Source: Polytrichum commune
Taxonomy: Eukaryota; Streptophyta; Polytrichopsida; Polytrichales; Polytrichaceae
Assembly (NCBI GenBank): GCA_950295325.1
Contig: OX485807.1
Span: 35,990,440-36,054,439, forward strand
DNA: 64,000 nt
Direction: 5' to 3'
Of this stretch, positions 2,936-62,394 are shown one piece after another. Numbering within the stretch: the stretch's first letter is position 1; each line of letters starts with the position of its first letter. Below the pieces are notes generated by a model. That model was given only the letters and a program-made list of their open reading frames with translations, made no database searches and was not told the origin of the DNA. A program made the translations under genes and the position numbers.

Positions 2936-4380
2936 CAACTGATCAATTCTGTCGGTTCTGAAGTTACTCACGTGAGACAAGGGATAAGTCACCCTTTGAG
3001 TTCTCTTCTGACATCATTCAGATAAGGTTTTACCTCTTCAATTTCTAACCATCTGATCACCAAGAATTTGAAACATGCTAAACGTGAAGTGTCAACTTGA
3101 AGAGATAAGACCACATGTCAGATCAATGGCGACCTATCTTGCACGGCAAAGCGCCTGCAACGTTGGGAGGCATAACCCCTCTAGCCATAAAATGACAACC
3201 GAAAATGCGATTCTGTTTTTGCCCCTTAACAAGATGTTGGATACCGTCCCATAAAACAGTCAGCGCTTCAGATTTACATTGGTATTTGTGACGGTGGAAC
3301 CAATCTCTTAATCTGTATACGTATCAATAATAAGGACGACAAGGACGCACCACATAGTTTGAAGGCCACTCCATATAATCCATTGTTCAGAGCCTTCTTA
3401 TAAATAATGTGTCTTCACTCCTTCTCAGGCCATGGTGCTCTCTGCTTGAAAAGTCTCGACACCCTTGTCAGCCAATGTAGTGAGTTGAATTCCAATCAAT
3501 TTCAGTGAGATGTCGCTGCAATTAGCCATAAGTGCAAGTATCCAAGTCAGTGAGATGTATCACCCTCAAGAGGTTATCCACATGTTTACTCACTCTCGCC
3601 AGCACTTCACATTTTGAGCAATTAATTTTAGTGCAGTGTAAGTGTCATAGAATCCACTAAGAAAATAAGTTTCATCGAGCTGAATCAAATTATCATTACA
3701 GTAAATCAAACCCATAACTAGAAGATTTCTTGATGTTATTTTGCTCCTTTCTCAATCGTGTTTAGCTGCGGGTGGATTGACATGGAGAGTGAACATGAAA
3801 TAGAGCGAACCCTATTTGACAAAATAAATCTGATACTAAAACACAATAACATTTATTTTTGACGAAGGTAGAACTAAGTGCATATCAACCCTTTCTTGAC
3901 CTCAATACCACATTCAATATGCCAATCAGTGGAACAGGGGAAGTACCCCGACATGCAAAGTTTCAACTAGACTTTGCCGGCCTATGACACCTGGCTAGTA
4001 TCTCAAAGGGAGGGCTCAACAGTGCAAAAAGGTCCCGTACCACCACACTGCACGACTCAGATGAGAACATCTCTTGCTGCGAAGGCTGGAAGCTTCGCAA
4101 AGCATAGAGAAGAGCTGGTGGCTGAGGAAGGTTTTGCGACTCATTCCGGTCTCCTATGTATGTATTCCTAACTGTGACCAATTCAACATACTCTTAGCTT
4201 GTATTGCTGTAAACAAATTCTATACGCCTGGTAATCCACTGCTCTATTCTCGAGTCCTCGAGATTCTTCTCGTCCGTGACATCGTCAGGGGGGGGAACCA
4301 AATACCAGGGAAAGGAAGATGATCAAGAAGCTAAAACTTATGCAGCAAGACCAGGATCACGTCATTCTGCCCCAATTCTT
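2936..4380. other. No recognisable gene
   Basis: Both strands carry only short open frames with frequent stops. No RNA gene, tandem repeat or terminal inverted repeat was seen. Confidence 0.5.
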
Positions 4381-5880
4381 TTCGAAAACTTCAGAAATAT
4401 CCAACTACCTCCCATAGCACTCCAGAGCAGCCAAAAGGCTTGCAAGTCGTCCTCGCCCTCTTCTTAGCTCTGGAGGCTCTATTCGCCGTACAATGGAAGC
4501 CGACTCTGCATGCACGACTTCGACAACTCTCACGAACGAAATCGTGGTATGATCAACTTTACTTATCACTACCTGTTCTCTCAGCACTTCTCTCTACAAA
4601 AAACACATTAACTGAGGCTAGAGCTCGTGGAGAAACAGGCTCAAGAAGATGATGCTAATTGCTTCACTCTTTGCACTAACACTCCTGCTAAGAAACGGAA
4701 GAGCAAGGTTCCATTTGCAATTAACCTCGAGGCTCAAGAAGATGATGCTACTTGATTCACTCTTTGCACTAATACTCCTGCTAAGAAACGGAAGAGCATG
4801 GTATCATTTTGCAATCAACCTCGAGGCTCAAGAAGATGATGCTAATTGCTTTACTCTTTGCACTAACTTTGCTGCTAAGAAACGGAAGTACAAGGTTCCG
4901 TTTTCAATTGACCTCGAGGCTTACGAAGATGACGCTAATTCGCTTCACTCTTTGCACTAAACTGCTGCTAAGAAACGGAAGAGCAAAGTATCATTTGCAA
5001 TCAACCTCAAGGCTCAAGAAGGTGATGCTAATTGCTTCACTCTTTGCACTAAAACTGCTGCTAAGAAAACGAAAGAACAAGGTATCATTTGCAATTAACC
5101 TCGAGCTCCACCTGTACGGCAACAATACGACAACACGTTGTTCACATACATAGATAGATCGTTATTATACCCCCACAGTCAAAGATCCCTTCCGCAAGTT
5201 CCGACACAAGCATGCAGCAGCAGGACGTCGATAGAAGGGGCGATAGAAGCGATGATTTTCTTTCACAGAGAGCATTATTATTGCCGCCGACTACGATACA
5301 GATATCTCAACCCTTGAAAGCTTAACACGCTTAATTAACTCGACAACAAACCTTCTTCCCCTGTCTCAGATGCATCGAAAAGTTCCAATTCTGGGACTCA
5401 AACTTCCTCGCGCGCACTACTACATGCATCACAAACTCCTCTCACGGTATCTCAAGCCACATCTACGTCAAGCAGGATGTACACATACAAGTGCTTGCGA
5501 GATCGTACGTCATGCGCTACCGAATGACCCGATGCTGCTGGCATCAAGTCAATTCCATCATCAGCACAATTTTGGTAGAAAATCTGGTAGGAAGTCTCAT
5601 GCAGAAGGAAGCTCCACCTGTTGCAACTCTCGGTAAGCCGTTGTGGAAGAGCCTTTCTCCAATTCCTCAAAATTCCAACACAGAGCAGCCTACACACAGG
5701 CGCCACTGCTCCTCTTCAGGACGTTCAACCAAGAGACAAAGATCCAACCAACACAGGTTGCAGCGGGTCAATTCCAACCCCAAACAGCGCTCCCTCCCGC
5801 ACTGGGAGCTCCAACTCGCCTCTCAAGAAGAAGAGCAGCCTTACCAAATCACACTAAGAGGCCAATTTCCCTTCCTTAGA
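4381..5880 (+). pseudogene. Decayed coding region with five 31-residue repeats
   Basis: Plus-strand frames look protein-coding in patches but are interrupted and shifted. The patches are a Ser/Thr/Arg-rich lead-in (about 4430-4550), the 93-bp repeats (4640-5100), Gln/Ser-rich stretches (about 5100-5320 and 5355-5500), and a Pro/Ser/Thr-rich stretch ending in a basic KKKSSLTKS segment (about 5690-5857). Each repeat encodes an acidic QEDDAN, then FTLCTN, then a basic AKKRKSK cluster like a nuclear localisation signal. Repeat 2 has an in-frame TGA and later copies shift frame. No family was recognised. A spliced gene with introns is possible but less likely given the internal stops. Confidence 0.35.
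4640..5100 (+). repeat. 93-bp tandem repeat, five copies
   Basis: The marker GCTAAGAAACGGAAG starts at 4687, 4780, 4874 and 4967, with a variant at 5060, giving spacings of 93, 94, 93 and 93. A period of 31 codons fits expansion within a reading frame. The 94-bp interval and a TGA in copy 2 break the frame now. Confidence 0.85.
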
Positions 5881-10978: not shown

Positions 10979-11477
10979 GGGCCACTTCACACACGAGCCA
11001 AGAGCTGTGACCATGAAATTGTGAGAGCCCAAAAGAAAGTGTCCAAAGGCCATCCCAAGACACCTCCAAAATCATGTAGTGTGGCACGGGTCCTCAAGCG
11101 TAGTGTGAAGTCACATGTGACTAAGACCTCAACCAAATGCTATTTCAATGATTTCTATTCATGTGGGTCCTCACACATGATAAATATAAAATAAATCAAC
11201 GGTTGTGAGCATTCAGAATGCCATGGTCTCCTGGTTTTGTGTTAGGCCTACCTCCGAGAGATGGTTTTTGAAAATAATCCAAGTGACCATGAAACATGAT
11301 TTATTTGATGCCATGTAGGAATCCATGTAGATTTTACATCCATCTTGCATTCACATACTCTGTTGGTCCCTCGAGCGTAGTGTGAAATGAACTTGGACCA
11401 GCTCAACCTTTTTGCACCAGTGAAAGTGCTCGAAGTGTAATATTCATGGGCTCTCAGTCTCATGTGTGAAGTGGCCC
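10979..11477. mobile_element. PIF/Harbinger-type MITE, family H1, copy 1 (499 bp)
   Basis: Perfect 14-bp terminal inverted repeats GGGCCACTTCACAC are flanked by the target duplication TTA at 10976-10978 and 11478-11480. It has no coding capacity. A second copy of identical length is at 43607-44105. The TTA/TAA target and GGGCC ends are diagnostic of PIF/Harbinger (Tourist-like) elements. Confidence 0.9.
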
Positions 11478-14151: not shown

Positions 14152-14737
14152 GGGCCCCTTCACAATATGGCCGTCCAGGTCGAGAGGCCGTGGGATTGAA
14201 TGGCCAAACTTTGGTGAGAGTCCAAAGAAATCGGTTGAAAATAGCCAATAAAATATACGAATTGGAGCCTTCAGCCAGGCATAGTGTGAAGCTTCCAAAG
14301 GCCAAGCCCAAAGTCCAAACCTTTGGCCATGAACTCACACAGCCTCTCGACTTGGACAGCCATAGTGTGAAGCCTCCAAAGGCCAAGCCCAAAGTCCAAA
14401 GGAAGAAGGAGCATCCCACTTTATTCCCTGCCCAAAACAACCCCTCCAATCTAACAGTCAAAATCTTGTCACTTTTTGATTTTTTCTTAATGAAAAAAAA
14501 ACCGACGGCCTCTCGACCATAGTTTGGAATTCTTTTCCTGCCCGACCCAAACTTCCTTTGAGAGTCCGCCACCTTGGTCCAAAAATACTGCTATATATGC
14601 AGGCATTTTGGAGAGTGACGGCCTTTGGACTTTGGCCTTTAGTGTGAAGGGCCGAGAAGCCGAACTCTTGGTTTCTTACAATCTGATTGGTGGAAATCGA
14701 CGGCCTCTGGACCTTCGGCCATAGTGTGAAGCGGCCC
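14152..14737 (+). mobile_element. PIF/Harbinger-type MITE, family H2, copy 1 (586 bp)
   Basis: Starts GGGCCCCTTCACAATATGGCC and ends GGCCATAGTGTGAAGCGGCCC, with target duplication TAA at 14149-14151 and 14738-14740. Internally the motif ATAGTGTGAAG followed by CTCCAAAGGCCAAGCCCAAAG occurs twice about 85 bp apart, and another TAGTGTGAAG occurs near the right end. The long frames across it are by-products of this repeat structure. Confidence 0.9.
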
Positions 14738-16077: not shown

Positions 16078-16642
16078 GGGCCACTTCACACTATGGCCGA
16101 AGGTGGAGAGGCCATCGATTTCCACGAATTATATTGCAAGAAACCAAGAATTCAGCCTCTCGACCCTTCACACTAGAGGCCAAAGTCCAAATGCCTACAT
16201 GGGGCAGTATTTTTTGACCAAGGTGACGGACTCTCAAACGAAGTTTGGGTCTGATACGAATTGGAACCCAAACTATGGTCGAGAGGCCGCCGATTCTTTA
16301 TCATTAAAATAAAATAAAAAACTAACAAGATCTTGGCCGTTAGATTGGAGGGGTTGTTATGGGCAAGGAATAAAGTGGGATGCTCCTTCTTCCTTTGGAC
16401 CTTGGGCTTGGCCTTTGGAGGCTCCACACTATGGCCGTCCAAGTCAAGAGGTTGTGGGAGTTCATGGCCAAAGGTTTGGACTTTGGGCTTGGCCTTTGGA
16501 GGCTTCACACTATGCCCGGCCGAAGCCTCCAATTCGTATATTTTATTGGCTATTTTCAACCAATTTCTTTGGACTCTCACCAAAGTTTGGCCATTCAATC
16601 CCATTGCCTCTCGACCTGGACGACCATAGTGTGAAACAACCC
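16078..16642 (-). mobile_element. PIF/Harbinger-type MITE, family H2, copy 2 (565 bp)
   Basis: The left end is GGGCCACTTCACACTATGGCC after TTA (16075-16077). The right end, ...CATAGTGTGAAACAACCC, has decayed and no TTA follows. Its content matches 14152-14737 in the opposite orientation, including the paired internal CTTTGGAGGCTTCACACTATG repeats. Confidence 0.85.
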
Positions 16643-20617: not shown

Positions 20618-20988
20618 GGGCCAGTTCACAAAGGGTCTCAAGTTCCACTCATGTTAGCAAGTCCCAACTTATGAGCCTCGAGAAACCATTGACATATGGT
20701 TAATTATCATTGAAGTCGGATCTTGATAATTTCATGTAAAAGTATTCGTGGGACTTGTGTTGAGAGTTGGGTCTAGCTTTTTGCTCGACCCAACTCTCAA
20801 CACAAGTCCTAAGCCTCACCTTCAACAAGTGTTGTCATACGAGCGTCCATGTCATACTTGGGACTTGGGATTTGGGACACGGTGTGAAGTGGTAAGTCCT
20901 GACTTCCATGCTCTCAACGGCTGAGATTGCATAGATTGATCCCAAGCAACTTGGGACTTGGGACTTGGGACCCTGTGTGAACTGGCCC
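20618..20988 (-). mobile_element. PIF/Harbinger-type MITE, family H3, copy 1 (371 bp)
   Basis: Ends are GGGCCAGTTCACA and TGTGAACTGGCCC, after TTA (20615-20617) and before TTC (one change from TTA). The interior is rich in the repeated motif GGGACTTGGGACTTGGGA, and CCCAACTCTCAACACAAGTCC occurs as a local inverted repeat around 20755-20810. The second copy at 34489-34884 is in the opposite orientation. Confidence 0.88.
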
Positions 20989-21228: not shown

Positions 21229-22294
21229 GTGTAAAGTATTGAACCTAGAACGGTGTCTATATTTTGAGCATATGGTCCAAGCTCATTGTACCACATGTCA
21301 TTTTCTTGGTGTATATGCTTAAGTACAAGCCTTCCCATAGACCGCTACGTAGGTGTTCGATCAAGAAGAGTGACTGCTAGGAAGGCATGGATGCCTTATA
21401 TACTCAATCAATATCGTTATACCAAGTGATGGTAAATCATTGTGTAAAGTATTGAACCTAGAACGGTGTGTATATTTTGAGCACATGGTCCAAGCTCATT
21501 GTACCACATGTCTTTTTCTTGGTGTATATGCTTAACTGCAAGCCTTTCCATAGACCGCTACGTAGGTGTTCGATTAAGAAAAGTGACTGCTAGGAAGGCT
21601 TGGATGCCTTATATACTCAATCAACATCATTATACCACATGATGGTAAATCATTGTGTAAAGTATTGAACCTAGAATGGTGTGTATATTTTGAGCACATG
21701 GTCCAAGCTCATTGAACCACATGTCTTTTTCTTGGTGTATATGCACAATTGCAAGCCTTTCCATAGACCACTATGTAGGTGTTCGATCAAGAAGAGTGAC
21801 TGCTAGGAAGGCATGGATGCCTTATATACTCAATCAATATCGTTATACCAAATGATGGTAAATCACTGTGTAAAGTATTGAACCTAGAATGGTGTGTATA
21901 TTTTGAACACATGGTCCAAGCTCGTTGAACCACATGTCTTTTTCTTGGTGTATATGCACAACTGCAAGCCTTTCCATAGACCACTATATAGGTGTTCGAT
22001 TAAGAAGAGTGACTGCTAGGAAGGCCTGGATGCCTTCTATACTCAATCAACATCGTTATACCAAATGATGGTAAATCACTGTGTAAAGTATTAAACTTAG
22101 AATGGTGTGTATATTTTGAGCACATTGTCCAAGCTCATTGTACCACATGTCTTTTTCTTGGTGTAAATGCTTAACTGCAAGCCTTTCCATAGACCACTAT
22201 ATAGGTGTTCGATTAAGAAGAGTGGCTGCCAGGAAGGCCTGGATGCCTTATAAACTCAATCAATATCGTTATACCAAATGATGGTAAATCGTTG
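21229..22294 (+). repeat. 213-bp tandem array, five units
   Basis: GTGTAAAGTATT starts at 21229, 21442, 21655, 21868 and 22081, exactly 213 bp apart each time. Units carry TTTTGAGCACATGGTCCAAG, CACATGTCTTTTTCTTGG, AGGTGTTCGAT and GACTGCTAGGAAGGC with a few substitutions. The constant period with point differences indicates unequal exchange with little insertion or deletion. Confidence 0.95.
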
Positions 22295-22588
22295 TTGTGT
22301 ACTGTAATGCTGGTTTCGAAAGTGGCCAAATCTACTTTTGAGGAAGGTTCACTGCAAGATTTACTGATTTCCGACGTCACAGTACGTGATTTGCTGCACA
22401 CTTGGCATAATTGCTACGGTGAATGGGCCTTGTTTTAGTTGCCTTTTGTTTTGCTACCTTATACTACTCGGATTCGCGACGTCAGAGCTTTTGTGCGACC
22501 GCAAATGAGCACGAAGAAGCTAAGATCAATCCCATAAAGTTTTGGAGTTAATCTCAAGTTGTTAATTTTCAAAGAGCAATGATAGTTA

Positions 22589-23080
22589 GCGCTTCACACT
22601 GTGGCCGTCCAAGTCGAGAGGCCATGAGATTGAATGGTCAAACTTTGTTGAGAGTCCAAAGAAATCAGCTGAAAATAGCTAACAAAATATAGGAATTGGA
22701 GCCTTCGGCCGGGCACAATGTGAAGCCTCCAAAGGCCAGGTCCAAAGTCCAAAGGGAGAAGGAGCATTCCACTTTATTCCTTGTCCAAAACAACCCCTCC
22801 ATCTAACAACAAAGATCTTGTCAATGTTTGATTTTTTATGGAAAAAAATTGACGGCCTCTCGACCATAGTTTGGGTTTCCATTCCCATCCGACTCAAACT
22901 TCCTTCGAGAATCCGTCGCCTTGGTTAAAAAATATTGCCATGTAGGCATTTTAAATTACAACAGCCTTTGGACTTTGGCCTCTAGTGTGAAGGGTCGAGA
23001 GGTTGAATTCTTAGTTTCTTGCAATCTGATTGGTGGAAATCAACGGCCTCTCGACCTTTAGCCATAGTGTGAAGCAACCC
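22589..23080 (+). mobile_element. PIF/Harbinger-type MITE, family H2, copy 3 (492 bp)
   Basis: TTA target duplications lie at 22586-22588 and 23081-23083. The left end is shortened (GCGCTTCACACTGTGGCC) and the right end reads GCCATAGTGTGAAGCAACCC. It has lost one of the two internal ATAGTGTGAAG blocks present in copy 1, which accounts for its shorter length. Confidence 0.87.
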
Positions 23081-26586: not shown

Positions 26587-28384
26587 TCACACACACATTA
26601 AAAAGTTATGGACGTTCACCTACATATATTCCTTCTTGCCGTGTTACTAACTCCACTCCTAACCTAGGCGCACCTTTATCCAAACATAACTTCCAAAACC
26701 ACCACCCTCGAAATCTTGCATAACAAGTGCATGCTGATTTTGAGAATGTTCATCATGTGAACATAGTTTTCTCTTTGAGGAATTGTGTTCTTTTTTTATT
26801 GTAAGGGGAGAATGTTTTTAAGTCCAGATGGTTGTCACGTATGCTAAGTACCTTATTTGCTCGGTTTAAGGTGCGATTACTTTGCCACTCTGAATGACGC
26901 GATTCGTTGATTGAAAGAAGCGAGTGTGTGGGTGTTACCTGGTTGCTTTTCTTCACCAAACACCTATATTTTAGTGGTGTGTTGTTCGCTGAGAATCAAA
27001 GACCAACACACATGTTGGACGACATGTTTAGAAGAGATTCGACTACATTTTCAAATTTTATTATTACTAACTAAACTGCACTCAGCAGTGAGTACAGTTG
27101 GGATGACCTTGACGTATTCGATTAAGAAATCAACAAACGTACAATTCCGATAACCACAACTACTTTAGAGAGGTATGGGTTTCAATCTAATTTTTTCTAA
27201 ATGATTCGTGTAATACTTGCTAATGCAACACACATTTTGTTGTGTAAATCTAAATGTAGACGTTGGACAACATGAAAGAACAAACTACACAACATCCACA
27301 TACCTTATGCCATCATGTGTCTCCACTATATGTTAAGGTGGATGATGCTAAAACTATCACTTTATGCGAGCATGAGAATATGTACATTTTTTATATTCTA
27401 AATTATATTGAATAAATTATATTAACAGTTAACATGGGATTCCAACGCAGTAGAGTGCATCTTATTGGAATTCCATTTGTGAAAGTTATTAGAGTTCAAA
27501 ATGGGATGTATTATGATATCATGGAAGCATCAACATCAATGGGATGAAGAAGAGGGTGAATATATGGCATGGAGTCAACCATTTTGAATGCCTCCTTCAC
27601 GGACGTGGATTTAATTTTGTTGTAGGTTTTGGGGAGTGTGGTTTTGACCATTTTGCATCAACAACAATTTACTCCTCGTCAACCTTGTCATGTTGTGAAA
27701 AAATTCCACTCATTTTTGGGAAGAGGTGGCAAGGGAAGATGCACTACCATCATCATTCCTTAAGGATTGGATTAGACTACAGTGAAGAAGTGCACTAGTC
27801 AAGAATTTTAGGGGAATGAAGGAACACGATTGGCTACGAAATGGGTTCTCACTGGCCAGGGTTTACACTATGATCAAAGACTTCTTCAGTGGAGAACTTC
27901 AAACATGGATGGAAAAATTGACATGGTTGTCAACATGGCAACATTATTTTGCTAGGGGAGTTTCTCCAGAGGTCAAGCTTCTTGGTCACACCCTCGTACA
28001 AGAAACTTGACCTCCAAAGAACTCCAATTTGAAGCTTAATAATAATAATGATAATAATAATAAAGTCTTTTCTTTCATCTTGTCCGTTGCCTTAAATAAC
28101 CTTATCTTGGGCTGAATTTTTTTACCGACCGGTGCTCTTCTTAACCGTAGTCTTAATCCTAAAACACCCAATGCCTAGTTTCGTGATTGTTTGTGCTATG
28201 CCATCAGGGAATGCCAATATATCTACAAGTTGCAGTCAAGAAAAATACATGAAATCATGTTGTTCAAGTGAATTGAAAAATAGACACGTGAGATATGGCT
28301 ACAAATTGACAATTGAGATGGAGAAGTTGTGCATATGGTCACATTGGTTGAGCATGCATGCATGCATGCATAAATGAATGACCA
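26587..28384. other. No recognisable gene
   Basis: Two frames (27544-27798, 27816-28010, plus) look weakly coding-like but end in stops and match no family I know. An (AAT)n-like tract lies at 28038-28063 and an imperfect ATGC repeat near 28352-28370. Confidence 0.4.
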
Positions 28385-30364: not shown

Positions 30365-30621
30365 GGGCTTGCTTCACACTATGGCCGTCCAAGTTTGGCC
30401 ATTCAAATCTCGGTTGTGGGATTGAATGGCCAAACTTTGTTGAGAGTCCAAAGAAATGGGCTGAAAATAACCAATAAAATATAGGATTTGGAGCCTTCGG
30501 CCAGGCATAGTATGAAGCCTCCAAAGGTCAGGTCCAAAGTCCAAACCTTTGGTCATGAACTCCCATAGCCTCTCGACTTGGACGGCCATAGTGTGAAGCT
30601 TCCAAAGGCCAAGTCCAAAGT

Positions 30622-30685
<64 letters not shown>

Positions 30686-31593
30686 AGACTTTTCAAAACT
30701 TTTACAAAGTTTGAACTTCCTCTTTTCAGAGGCCAAATCCTTCAACTTCTTCTTCATTGCAATACAAGGATGGGTGGGTGGGAATTTCCACAACACACTT
30801 TCTATCTCTTTTGCATCTTCCTATTTGGTAACACAATAAAATTTTGCATAATAGAGTTGTTTGCAATCATGCCTAGTTGTGTGTTGTACAACATGGACAT
30901 TTTGTGTTATAGCCTCCTTTGCTTTGCAAGCATATGTACCTTACTTAGGGTTTATGCTATCAAATGGTATCCAACAACAAATGTTTGATTTTGACTGCCC
31001 CATACCTTGGAAGTTTAATCACCTATCTTCTTGCTTCACCTCAAAGCACATATAGCTAATCCACCACATGTATGGAGTACTTACAATGAAAATGTTCCTA
31101 GTAACTTCAACCAATAGATATGCATAAAATGTCATAATCACAATACATCATTATATTGAAAGTGTGAAGGGCATGCCTCACTTGAGCCCATGCAACCAAC
31201 CAACAAACATTTGAGGATTAGTTACGTACACAGGGTAAATAACAGCGGGACCTAGTTGTCATCCATGTCGCACACATTTAGTCCATTTCAAATGCATCAT
31301 AATATTTCAAATCACAACACTCATTGTAGAACTACATATGGGTGTTCAAACATGTTCCTTGGCCATGATTGGGTCACTCCAAATAGAATACTCCCCTTGG
31401 TGATGAGTCCTCGTTTCTCTTACTTTTAGCATGTATCTACTACCCAGTGAGTATACACAAGGTTCACTACACCTCTCACTTGCGTGAATGGTAAAAGAAG
31501 CTCTTTTTAGGGTTATGAGTTTATAAAATCCTTAAAATATGATTGGTAGAAATCGATGGCCTCTTGACCTTCAGCCATAGTGTGAAGCGGCCC
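30365..31593 (-). mobile_element. PIF/Harbinger-type MITE, family H2, copy 4, enlarged to 1,229 bp
   Basis: The left end is GGGCTTGCTTCACACTATGGCC after TTA (30362-30364). The right end is GCCATAGTGTGAAGCGGCCC before TTA (31594-31596). Family H2 sequence fills 30365-30620 and about 31541-31593. The intervening 0.9 kb, starting with a TG/AG microsatellite, has no counterpart in the other copies. The matched TTA supports one element that gained an internal insert. Confidence 0.78.
30621..30684 (+). repeat. Compound (TG)n(AG)n microsatellite
   Basis: About 13 TG units run into about 19 AG units, exactly at the point where H2 similarity stops. Confidence 0.95.
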
Positions 31594-34488: not shown

Positions 34489-34884
34489 GGGTTGGTTCAG
34501 ATGTGGTCCCAAGTCCTAAGTTCCAAGTCACTTGAGGTCAAATTGTGCAATCTCAACCATTGAGAGCGTGGAAGTTGGGACTTACCACTTCACATGGGGT
34601 CCCAAGTTCTGAATCCTAAGTATGACACAGATGCCCACACGGCAAAACTTTTTGAAGGTGAGGCTTGGGACTTGTTTTGAGAGCGGAGTCGAGCAAAAAG
34701 CTAGACCCAACTCTTAACACAAGCCCCATAATTTTTTTGCATAAATTAATCAAGATTCGACTTTAATGAATTTAAATCTTATTTTCATGGTTTCTCGAGG
34801 CTCACAAGTTGGGGCTTTGCCTCCATGATGGGACTTGCAAACATGAGTGGGACTTGGGACTTGAGACGCCATGTGAATTGGCCC
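34489..34884 (+). mobile_element. PIF/Harbinger-type MITE, family H3, copy 2 (396 bp)
   Basis: TTA target duplications lie at 34486-34488 and 34885-34887. The right end is intact (TGTGAATTGGCCC); the left has drifted (GGGTTGGTTCAGATGTGG). The interior shares GGTCCCAAGT, CAACCATTGAGAGCGTGGAAG and AAAAAGCTAGACCCAACTCT with copy 1 in the opposite sense. Confidence 0.85.
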
Positions 34885-43606: not shown

Positions 43607-44105
43607 GGGCCACTTCACACACGAGCCAAGAGCCGCGACCATGAAACTGTGAGAGCCCAAAAGAAAGTGTCCAAAGGCCGTCCCAACACACCTCCAAAAT
43701 CATCTAGTGTGGTCACGGACCCTCAAGTGTAGTGTGAAGCCATATGTGACCAGGCCCTCAACCAAATGCTATTTCAATGAATTTTTATTCATGCGGGTTC
43801 TCACATATGATAAAATAACATAAATCAACGGTTGTGAGCGTTCGGAGTGCCATGGTCTCCCGGTTTTGTGTCAGGTCTACCTCCAAGAGGTGGTTTTGGA
43901 AAATAGTCAAAGTGACCACGAAACATGATCCATTTGATGCCATGTAGGAATCCATGCAGACTTTACATCCATCTTGCATTCACGTACTCCCGTGATCCCT
44001 CAAGCGTAGTGTGAAGTGAACTTGGACCGGCTCCGCCCTTTTCACCAACGAGAGTGCTTGAAGTGTAATGGTCACAGGCACTCAGTCTCGTGTGTGAAGT
44101 GGCCC
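43607..44105. mobile_element. PIF/Harbinger-type MITE, family H1, copy 2 (499 bp)
   Basis: Ends are GGGCCACTTCACACACGAG and the inverted CTCGTGTGTGAAGTGGCCC, with TAA at 43604-43606 and 44106-44108. It has the same length and orientation as 10979-11477, with a TAA instead of a TTA target. No coding capacity. Confidence 0.92.
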
Positions 44106-45170: not shown

Positions 45171-45289
45171 AATCATTAATTAGCAGAGAGGCGGGAAAAA
45201 AGCCAAACATAGAAGCCACAAGGAAAACCACGTCACAACTACAATATAATAAGAAACCTTATTGAATTATAAAAATATTTCCAAGAAGA

Positions 45290-46255
45290 AGCTCAAAAGC
45301 CATGTCTACACCTATCTATACCAAGCTTTACAGATAGGTCCGCCTCTCCAACATGAAGTGAAAAAGGGAGAATAACTATTGTGCGTACAATACATACCCA
45401 ACCCTTGTCACTGACGCTGCTCCTCACACTTAGTACCTTCCCAAAATAAAAACCATCTTCTAAGCCCACAATGCCACCGCTGCCACTGCAATAGGTGGTC
45501 ACCCCCACCTTGTCACCACCAACAAAGCTTACCCAAAACCCCCCGTCTACACCTATCTCTACCAGGCTCTACAAATAGACCCGCCTCTCCAACATGAAGT
45601 GAAAGAGGGAGAATAACTACTATGCCTACAATAAATACCCAACCCATGTTAGTGACGCTTCTCTTCACACTTAATACCTTCCCAAAATAGCAATTGTCTT
45701 CTAAACCCACAATGCCACCGCTGGCACTACAACAGGTGGTCGCCCCCCACCTCGTCACCACCAACAAAGCTTACCCAGAAAACCCCGTCTACACCTATCT
45801 CTACCAAGTTCTACAGGTAGACCCGCCTCTCCAACATGAAGTGAAAGAGGGAGAATAACTACTATGCCTACAATAAATACCCAACCCATGTCACTGACGT
45901 TTCTCTTCACACTCAATACCTTCCCAAAATAACAATTGTCTTCTAAACCCACAATGCCACCGCTGGCACTACAACAGGTGGTCGCCCCCCACCTCGTCAC
46001 CACCAACAAAGCTTACCCAAAAAACCCCGTCTACACCTATCTCTACCAGACTCTACAGATAGACCCGCCTCTCTAACATGAAGTGAAAGAGGGAGAATAA
46101 CGAATGTGCCCACAATAAATACCCAACCCTTGTCACGAATGCTGCTCTTCACACTTAATACCTTCCCAAAATAGAAATTGTCTTCTAAACCCACAATGGC
46201 ACTGCAACAGGTGGTCACCCCCCCACCTCGTCACCACCAAAAAAAGCTTACCCTC
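45290..46255 (-). repeat. 242-bp tandem array, four units
   Basis: ATGAAGTGAAA starts at 45353, 45594, 45836 and 46078 (spacings 241, 242, 242). Each unit contains an open minus-strand frame of about 71-84 codons ending in GKLCWW. Because 242 is not a multiple of three, successive frames shift, and neighbouring ones overlap by 13 bp. A satellite origin of these frames is more likely than genes. Confidence 0.92.
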
Positions 46256-60254: not shown

Positions 60255-60716
60255 AGCACATGTAAGGACTCAAATCCTTTTGCATTTACAAACTCGAGCT
60301 GGACTCTCAAGCTCCACTTGCTGGTCTGAAGTTATGGCTCTCTTCAACTTGACGACCTTTACAGATACATCCAGGTAACTAGACATGCGATGACATTATT
60401 ATAGAAGAAGGCTGCCGCCCAAGATGTGAGAATCATAACTAGAAGCACCTTCATGGTTTGTTGATGTAAAACAATTATTTTTGGTTGCATGATCTCGGTG
60501 GGGGTGAACGTGTTCTCGTTTGACTAATAGAATATTGCAAAGTAGATTATGGCGGACGTTAAAGTACCCCCTACGAACTTGTACAGGCAGATCCTACCCA
60601 AAATATGCCTTGCCCGCCCGTCGACGACAATGATGTCATCAACAGAGTATAGTGATATTGTTCCGTCCACCATCCGTCGAACGAATGACGCAGGCGCCAC
60701 CAAAAGCCTTGCACAC
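60255..60716. other. No recognisable gene
   Basis: No supported frame or repeat between the hairpin element and the PIF/Harbinger left end. Confidence 0.45.
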
Positions 60717-60719
60717 TAA

Positions 60720-62390
60720 GGGCCGGTTTACACTACGGTGGAGAAGGCCTCTGGTCGGTCAAGAATGCTTGGCCAAGACATGGTTATATGAGGCAAATGG
60801 TGGATGTGCCAGAGAAGAATTAAAGGCAATAAAATATTTCTTAAGGAGTCTTGACTGGTTGAAGTCTAAACCACCTAGAGGAGAAGTTTAGCGGAGAAGT
60901 CCACCGAAGAAGTCCACTAGTGAAGAGAAGTTCACCTAATGGTGAAGATTTTTTGTGATAAAAAACCATAATTCTCTACATTCACATTGTATCAAAAGAT
61001 TTCAACAAGAATTGTGTTCATAAGAATTGTGTAATATAATGTTCAATTTTATTCAAAAGATAATGAAAATTGCCAAATTGCCAATTGTCAAGTTTGGCCC
61101 ATGTAGGAAATAAATGTCTCCTTGGGTGTTTAAGAATGAAGAGGGGAAAACCCATACACATTGGACAAAACACTACTCTTTGGTATTATTTAAGACATGC
61201 TCTCCTCTTAATCATCCTCATCAATTTCTCTCTTCTTATCTTTGATCTTCAATCATGGATAATCGAAGAAAAGAGATTTTGTGCTCTCTTACGATTTTTA
61301 TGGTTTTGAAGTATTTTATCGTTTCAACTATGGCGATACAAAAAACCATCATGTATCACCATAATGCTTCAATTATGATGATGGTATATTTTTTGTTTGG
61401 GAGCAAGGAGAGGGTGGTGTGGAAATTTGACCGGCCAAATGGATATGTGTCACAATTTCTTCTTGGATCATATAATGCAAAAATGTTCAAAGATCATGTA
61501 CATGTGAGTAAGCCTATTTTTTTTTTATGTCATTTGTTTGGACCCATGTTGAACAAGAAAGATACAAAATTAAGACTTTGTATTCCAATAGAGTGTAGAA
61601 TTTTTTTGACATTGCATCGATTGGCAACCGGTGATACTTTGCATACATTTGCCGATTTGTATGGTATTTCAAAGTCAAATGCTTCAATCATAGTGAGAGA
61701 AGTATGTGAGGGTATTAAAAGTATTTTGAGGCCTTTGGTTTTTCCTAAACCAACATTGTCAAGAATGAAGCAAATAGCTTTAGAGTTTGAGAGTTTGCAT
61801 GGAATTCCATACATTTTAGGGGCAATAGATGGGAGTCACATTCCAATCATAGTTCCTAGTATAGATCATGCTTCATATTATTGTAGGAAGGGATTTTATT
61901 CGGTTTTACTTCAATGTGTAGTGGATTCTCAATGCAAATTTTGGGATTATAATTTTGGGTGGGCCGGTAGTATACATGATTGGGTCCTATTTTAAAAATC
62001 TGAAATTGGAAAGAGAACTATGAGTGGAACATTTTTACCATATAAGCTTATTGGAGATGCTACATATCCTATGCGCCCATGGTTCTATACACCATTCAAA
62101 GGAGAGAAGACCGGTCTTTCAAGGGAGAAATAACATTGGAATTTCATTCAATCAAGCATAAGAATGGTGGTGGAGCGTGCATTTGGAATGTTAAAGGGGA
62201 GGTGGCGGATTCTACTTAAGAAAATTGACATGCAACTACGTAGCATTCCGGGTATGGTAACCACTTGCCTTTGCCTTCACAATTTATGCCTAATTCATGC
62301 TGATGAGTTTGACATGAATTGGGCAAGAAGTGCTGAAGAAGAGTTGAAGAAAATATCTCTATAAAACTTTAGTGATTTTAGAGATGTGGA
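60720..62390 (+). mobile_element. PIF/Harbinger transposon, left end plus transposase gene; right end not found
   Basis: Begins GGGCCGGTTTACACTACGG directly after TAA (60717-60719), matching the ends of the H2 MITEs at 16 of 19 positions. It contains a transposase gene at 61255-62364. I found no inverted copy of the terminus before the window end. The character of the sequence changes after about 62395, so the right end is deleted or displaced by a later insertion. No separate Myb-like second gene was seen in the available part. Confidence 0.8.
61255..62364 (+). pseudogene. PIF/Harbinger transposase (HARBI1-like DDE), two in-frame stops
   Basis: One frame of 370 codons carries the DDE_4-type nuclease: GAIDGSHIPI (first Asp, about residue 191), GDATYPM (second Asp, near 62057), and VVERAFGMLKGRWRIL (Glu, near 62170). 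It also has the typical HDW motif after the first Asp and a short helix-turn-helix-like region before it (FADLYGISKSNASIIVREV). The stops are TAA at 61993-61995 and 62131-62133. Each stands where a CAA (Gln) would fit, so each is one C-to-T change. The start is the Met at 61255; the family often has a slightly longer N-terminus. The PIF/Harbinger transposase normally acts with a Myb-like partner not found here. Without stop readthrough this copy is inactive. Confidence 0.88.
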
Positions 62391-62394
62391 TTTA

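Follow-up and report, generated by a model that had tools for sequence, protein, structure and literature searches.

The window examined here is a 64,000-nucleotide stretch of the 407.8 Mb genome of Polytrichum commune (C5:35990440-36054439). The feature at 60720, close to its right edge, is best read as a defunct copy of a PIF/Harbinger transposon that probably had two genes. The following parts were recognised in it.

60717..60719, plus strand: left target duplication, TAA, read from the sequence; the relatives L009 and L010 show TAA/TAA and TTA/TTA
60720..60738, plus strand: PIF/Harbinger left terminus, GGGCCGGTTTACACTACGG; same end in 6/6 full-length close copies, and at a similarity-loss boundary
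60720..62393, plus strand: 5' part of the broken PIF/Harbinger element; 95% to L010 1-1663 and L009 1-1677
61255..61995, plus strand: transposase frame, N-terminal part and start of the DDE domain, with a stop at its end; DDE_Tnp_4, E=1.4e-08
62134..62364, plus strand: transposase frame, C-terminal part, in a different frame; DDE_Tnp_4, E=4.5e-10
62388..62393, plus strand: GGATTT, left copy of a 6-bp repeat bordering the later insertion, single in L010
62394..64000, no strand assigned: in-window portion of the 3,591-bp insertion that interrupts the element; ends 1,984 bp past the window, at C5:36056423

As originally predicted, TAA is followed by GGGCCGGTTTACACTACGG at 60720, and a PIF/Harbinger-like transposase is indeed present, its DDE_Tnp_4 match divided between the two frame pieces. 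The transposase also matches Pfam Plant_tran, and the frame at 61255..61995 matches HTH_Tnp_4 at 9.4e-05, under the curated cut-off. The end of the element, which had been placed at 62364, is corrected to 62393; the insertion follows, and the element resumes outside the window, where similarity restarts at C5:36056424 and stops at L010 position 3099, 633 bp before the right end of L010. Neither the right terminus nor the last 633 bp turned up in the 6.7 kb that follow. The insertion showed no long terminal repeats on self-comparison; its minus strand holds an open frame of 644 codons, 237 residues of which gave no Pfam match. Elsewhere in the window, three tandem arrays lie at 4637-5126 (period about 93 bp), 21229-22380 (about 213 bp), and 45261-46227 (about 242 bp).

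Relatives of the window element

The genome was searched at the protein level with the N-terminal 246 open residues of the window transposase, 150 of 1,571 first-look candidates being scored. There were at least 151 matches, and among those listed, five were full-length at 89-91% identity besides the window copy. All six full-length close copies, the window copy included, have identical first 30 bases after TTA or TAA, situated 522-536 bp before the transposase frame, and the similarity between the window element and its relatives is lost at 60716, about 5 bases or less from the terminus, at a boundary backed by 4/7 relatives. The terminus thus belongs to a transposase element, as had been proposed, and the alternative that it is the end of an unrelated MITE is ruled out by the close copies together with the similarity boundary. 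The intact copies anticipated by the original prediction, with both ends and a transposase, were located as L010 (3,732 bp, TTA/TTA) and L009 (3,506 bp, TAA/TAA), the inverted ends of each comprising 30 identical bases on either side. The T44 and T77 elements likewise carry inverted terminal repeats on both sides.

Twenty window-type end-pairs were sampled from C1, picked for exact 19-base ends, and their 3-bp flanks were identical in 20/20 (13 TTA, 5 TAA, 1 TGA, and 1 TCA); TTA or TAA accounts for 18 of these, and the window copy itself shows TAA on the left. Eight of the pairs measured 0.34-0.39 kb, ten 0.95-1.32 kb, and two 3.5-3.7 kb. Three of the eight short and ten mid-size forms were aligned to L010, the other 15 being left out: L013 and L024 (374 bp) consist of the left 118 and right 285 bp of L010, and L014 (1,195 bp) of the left 939 and right 241 bp, the middle missing in each case. 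Judged by these alignments, the window type has left deletion derivatives of its own, namely MITEs of 0.34-0.39 kb and forms of 0.9-1.3 kb.

A convergent second gene resembling Myb/SANT-type sequences was found in pieces, as if interrupted by an intron, in L010 and in the elements T44 and T80. Matches to Myb_DNA-bind_4 ranged from 2.8e-05 to 7e-05 for pieces of all three, under the curated cut-off throughout, with another L010 piece at 0.021. The L044-type transposase matched DDE_Tnp_4 at 7.9e-29. Also seen in L010, at 3637-3683 (element 3537-3583), was a subterminal box with TACATGGC, which several families match weakly at roughly 100-195 bp from their ends and which is possibly a candidate binding site or a promoter piece. 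Four uninterrupted transposase frames of 468 codons, with near-equal scores, lie at C4:806437, C4:33684524, C5:29722201, and C5:49983152, and are possibly recent copies; the end was read for the first only, as that of L067, GGGGCGGTTTACACC.

The MITEs of the window and their partners

All eight MITEs that had been predicted in the window (two H1, four H2, and two H3) are present, and a probable decayed MITE was found outside these families.

10979..11477, no strand assigned: H1a MITE, TTA/TTA, putative derivative of an L077/L080-type element (end and arm matches)
43607..44105, no strand assigned: H1b MITE, TAA/TAA, putative derivative of an L077/L080-type element (end and arm matches)
14152..14737, no strand assigned: H2a MITE, TAA/TAA, putative derivative of an L044-type element (arm matches)
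16078..16642, no strand assigned: H2b MITE, TTA/CGA
22586..23080, no strand assigned: H2c MITE, left tip damaged
30365..31593, no strand assigned: H2d MITE, TTA/TTA, lengthened by additional DNA, part of it simple repeats
20618..20988, no strand assigned: H3a MITE, TTA/TTC
34489..34884, no strand assigned: H3b MITE, TTA/TTA
27764..28161, no strand assigned: probable decayed MITE from the window/L041 lineage, with approximate borders and worn tips (both arms of L010, L013, left end of L041)

The TTA/TAA duplications that had been attributed to these MITEs are perfect in five of the eight (H1a, H1b, H2a, H2d, and H3b) but not in H3a or H2b, with their unequal flanks, or in H2c, which is without its left tip. 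The quoted agreements with the window terminus (16/19 for H2, 11/14 for H1, and 11/13 for H3, the latter two by direct reading) were reproduced, and the interiors are mutually unrelated as described, H1, H2, and H3 showing no similarity at E<=1e-3 with the low-complexity filter on. With one mismatch or fewer, GGGCCNNTTNACAC occurs 13 times in the window, against a mean of 0.78 and a maximum of 3 in 100 shuffles. Across the genome, 19-base ends with up to two mismatches numbered 3,900 for the window type, 3,081 for H2, 13,801 for H1, and 331 for H3 (2, 0, 1, and 1, respectively, in reversed-pattern controls), and identical 3-bp flanks were found in 4/9 H1, 7/9 H2, and 5/10 H3 readable copies of the genome samples, plus L126. 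Short, with inverted ends, a TWA duplication, and high copy number, the three families would fit the description of Tourist-like MITEs. The region at 27764-28161 matches the L010 arms at 72-74% (E 1.4e-07 and 6e-06), the 374-bp MITE L013, and the left end of L041 at 83% over 47 bp (1.2e-08). It is probably a decayed MITE of the window element's lineage or of the L041 sister, whose worn tips hid it from searches with the terminal sequence.

The transposase clade associated with H1 shares 43-44% protein identity with the window transposase. The end GGGCCACTTCACACACGAGCCAAGAGCCrTGACCATGAAA opens all five H1-clade loci with upstream sequence retrieved (L077 and L080-L083), the genome search having given more members of the clade than the five with ends read. 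The left ends of H1a and H1b agree with it at 39/40 positions, compared with 16 and 17/40 for the window end. The L077 element is 3,402 bp long, with both ends and TTA on each side. Positions 1-51 of H1a correspond to 1-51 of this element at 94% (92-94% for the H1 MITEs overall) and positions 234-499 to its right arm of about 266 bp (3137-3402) at 67% (70% for H1b), and a further match of about 33 bp lies near element position 103-134. In a genome sample made up of nine of the ten listed H1 pairs within about 1.1 kb, with exact paired ends, the right arm of the L077-type element was matched in 9/9, the left arm in 8/9, and L010 in 0/9 (E<=1e-6). H1 is best read as an internally deleted derivative of an L077/L080-type element, built largely of its two arms. 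A literature search for the exact H1 tip string GGGCCACTTCACA found no paper, which says little. At L125:288-1186 (C1:5137601-5139500), H1 left ends form a head-to-tail tandem array of 4.0 copies of a 222-bp unit with 94% matches; an H1-like end lies right beside L018, and L012 sits inside an H1 end.

For H2 the corresponding transposases are those of the L044-type clade, with 52-58% identity to the window transposase over 246 residues; L044 itself is 61-63% identical to six window-family transposases when up to 386 residues are compared. Of 12 loci of this clade that were examined, nine (L044, L057, L104, L105, L147, L148, L150, L151, and L152) begin with GGGCCGGTTCACACTATGGCC or a near variant, and three (L058, L149, and L153) do not. 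Two collinear arms of H2a match the L044 element, 87-170 corresponding to element positions 87-169 at 77% and 264-586 to the right 326 bp (3054-3379) at 70% (E=1.4e-30). All nine genome H2 copies sampled for exact paired ends match the L044-type element, and none L010 (E<=1e-6). The right tip of H2a agrees at 18/19 with L044 and 16/19 with the window end; over 40 bases, its left end scores 23 with the window and 22 with L044, and its right end 26 with L044 and 20 with the window. The arms thus point to H2 as an internal-deletion derivative of an L044-type element or of a sister, and the direct source may be an unsampled sister, since identity is about 70% and the left end is no closer to L044. 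At L151:740-1251 an H2 MITE abuts the left end of an L044-type element, with CAA between.

The unrelated interiors had been taken as a sign that unrelated DNA was recruited repeatedly between the same ends. In favour of this, H1, H2, and H3 are without mutual match, and most of the H3 interior is without a known source, but much of H1 and H2 consists of subterminal arms from each family's own transposase-bearing element, as in 18/18 sampled copies, which makes such capture exceedingly improbable. The arm alignments lead us to reject it wherever H1 and H2 match their partners, the collinearity of the arms with those of the partners indicating internal deletion instead.

H3 is a genuine but smaller family. 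Of 20 ends sampled from the 331 in the genome, a second end was recognisable in 11, and five of the ten copies with readable flanks had identical 3-bp flanks. No transposase with H3 ends was found, by end similarity, among the loci sampled, and seven further L044-clade loci, which gave L044-type ends or no end, yielded no H3 partner. Nine of 14 two-ended H3 copies have in common with L010 or L009 a box that reaches 45 bp, and six of the 14 have one of 23-27 bp in common with T44 (both at E<=1e-3); the L010 box outscored 200/200 shuffles in 3/3 H3 copies tested. These boxes suggest that H3 might derive from an element, now extinct or not sampled, within the lineage holding the window and L044 types; yet they are short, H1a and H2b also slightly exceed their own shuffles with the same box, and no H3-ended transposase was among the loci sampled, so that the chances of this derivation seem evenly balanced. 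Many H3 copies or tips match a stretch just upstream of, and outside, the end of the L067 element, which is perhaps a neighbouring H3 piece.

End types and the transposase tree

At least nine transposase end types of this genome, spanning 35-84% transposase protein identity, carry the tip GGGCC..TTyACAC or a variant of it. This tip therefore cannot name the partner of a MITE; the 13-19 nt compared in the original prediction fall mostly inside it. A variant tip, GGCCCayACCACAC, was found in L094 and L096. Ends were located with a motif covering bases 1-14, so the similarity of tips is partly built in, and a motif-free check based on loss of similarity between copies was also run. In 43/60 loci the limit lay no more than a few bases from such an end, some of these boundaries being backed by a minority of relatives; the other 17 had no such boundary, and some of them may have different ends. 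The end motif had no match in L058, L059, L069, and L070, scanned with 20 other loci, or in L149, L150, L152, and L153, of which L150 and L152 were later placed at L044-type ends by the similarity-loss check.

A protein tree was built from 29 of 38 loci, nine with 200 residues or fewer being dropped. The nine end types require eight changes among the 29 transposases, which is the minimum and was reached in 0/200 shuffles, an agreement that near-copies inflate. The window group has a support of 49/67, and L041 is a long branch. Among nine representatives, similarity over bases 1-14 was unrelated to protein similarity (Mantel r=-0.04, p=0.57), while bases 15-40 gave r=0.51 and p=0.005 with nine types (p=0.007 in a rerun). 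After close types were removed, the values for bases 15-40 were r=0.48 and p=0.05 with seven types, and r=0.20 and p=0.25 with six. This hints that bases 15-40 may mark a lineage and its near kin, with no measurable signal among deeper lineages.

These results bear on whether a window-type transposase was the source that moved H1, H2, and H3 via the shared end. Between 11 and 16 of 13-19 end bases are shared, the H2 partner is 61-63% identical to full-length window-family transposases, and cross-mobilisation by Ping and Pong is established at 77% transposase identity, according to PMC2836001. However, the tip occurs in nine end types, the H1 and H2 arms match other elements, with L010 matched in 0/18 sampled copies, and the window copy itself is broken, all of which makes such a source very unlikely. 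The original proposal that the window element gave rise to the eight MITEs is rejected for H1 and H2, whose arms belong to L077- and L044-type elements, and for H3 is reduced to the box of up to 45 bp shared with L010. The subterminal arms of the window element were not found in the three families, H2d matching L010 in simple repeat only and H3 in that box only.

Origin of the MITEs and comparison with known systems

The reading we prefer, to which we give a probability of roughly 0.9, is that these lineages left their own deletion derivatives, H1 from the L077/L080 type, H2 from the L044 type or a sister, and the small forms from the window type, under a tip common to nine end types. Ends, duplications, clades, and the collinearity of H1 and H2 arms with their partners are read directly, and movement by the own partner would be the likeliest account. 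An element with a transposase and, where relatives are longer, a convergent Myb/SANT-like gene would undergo internal deletion in each lineage, leaving MITEs that keep both arms; each partner's protein pair would then move its own elements and their deleted copies, presumably by reading clade-specific bases beyond the shared tip. In PIF/Harbinger elements, end binding falls to the ORF1 protein and cleavage to the transposase (PMC2836001). Cross-action between lineages, above all between the window and L044 types, is possible, though it is not needed for H1 or H2. More tentatively, the end might consist of two zones, a tip of about 14 bases acting as a shared cleavage signature and the next 26 bases or so as a binding address, so that lineages could act weakly on the MITEs of others. 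This seems unlikely but, if true, could help explain how H1 reached 13,801 matching ends.

The nearest parallel is with the MtPH elements of Medicago (PMC2213677). There too a second ORF accompanies the transposase and the target duplication is 3 bp; the elements fall into many families, each with distinctive inverted ends, derivatives with internal deletions occur, and one of the families is linked to a family of MITEs. The Medicago elements differ in their ends, as all ten consensus ends in Table 3 of that paper contain GTTTG, in contrast to the GGGCC..TTyACAC tip or its variant here, and the H1 and H2 ends are without the G of G(N)5GTT, the motif used in that study (PMC2213677). Short deletion derivatives with partner-like ends and TTA/TAA duplications are also familiar from mPing with Ping and Pong, a comparison drawn partly from PMC2836001. 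Past base 51, most of the H1 and H2 arms show 66-80% identity to the partners examined, and their mobility is something we infer. mPing is far less diverged from its partner than these arms are from theirs.

The arrangement is an ordinary one. Own-ended families, deletion derivatives, and linked MITEs have already been described in Medicago, and the elements reported here are new members. Where many related lineages coexist, the outermost 14-19 bases of a MITE are insufficient to name its partner, and the next 25 bases or so, together with the subterminal arms, are needed for the assignment. With their matched transposases, the nine end types are usable for testing how end recognition has diverged among PIF/Harbinger elements.
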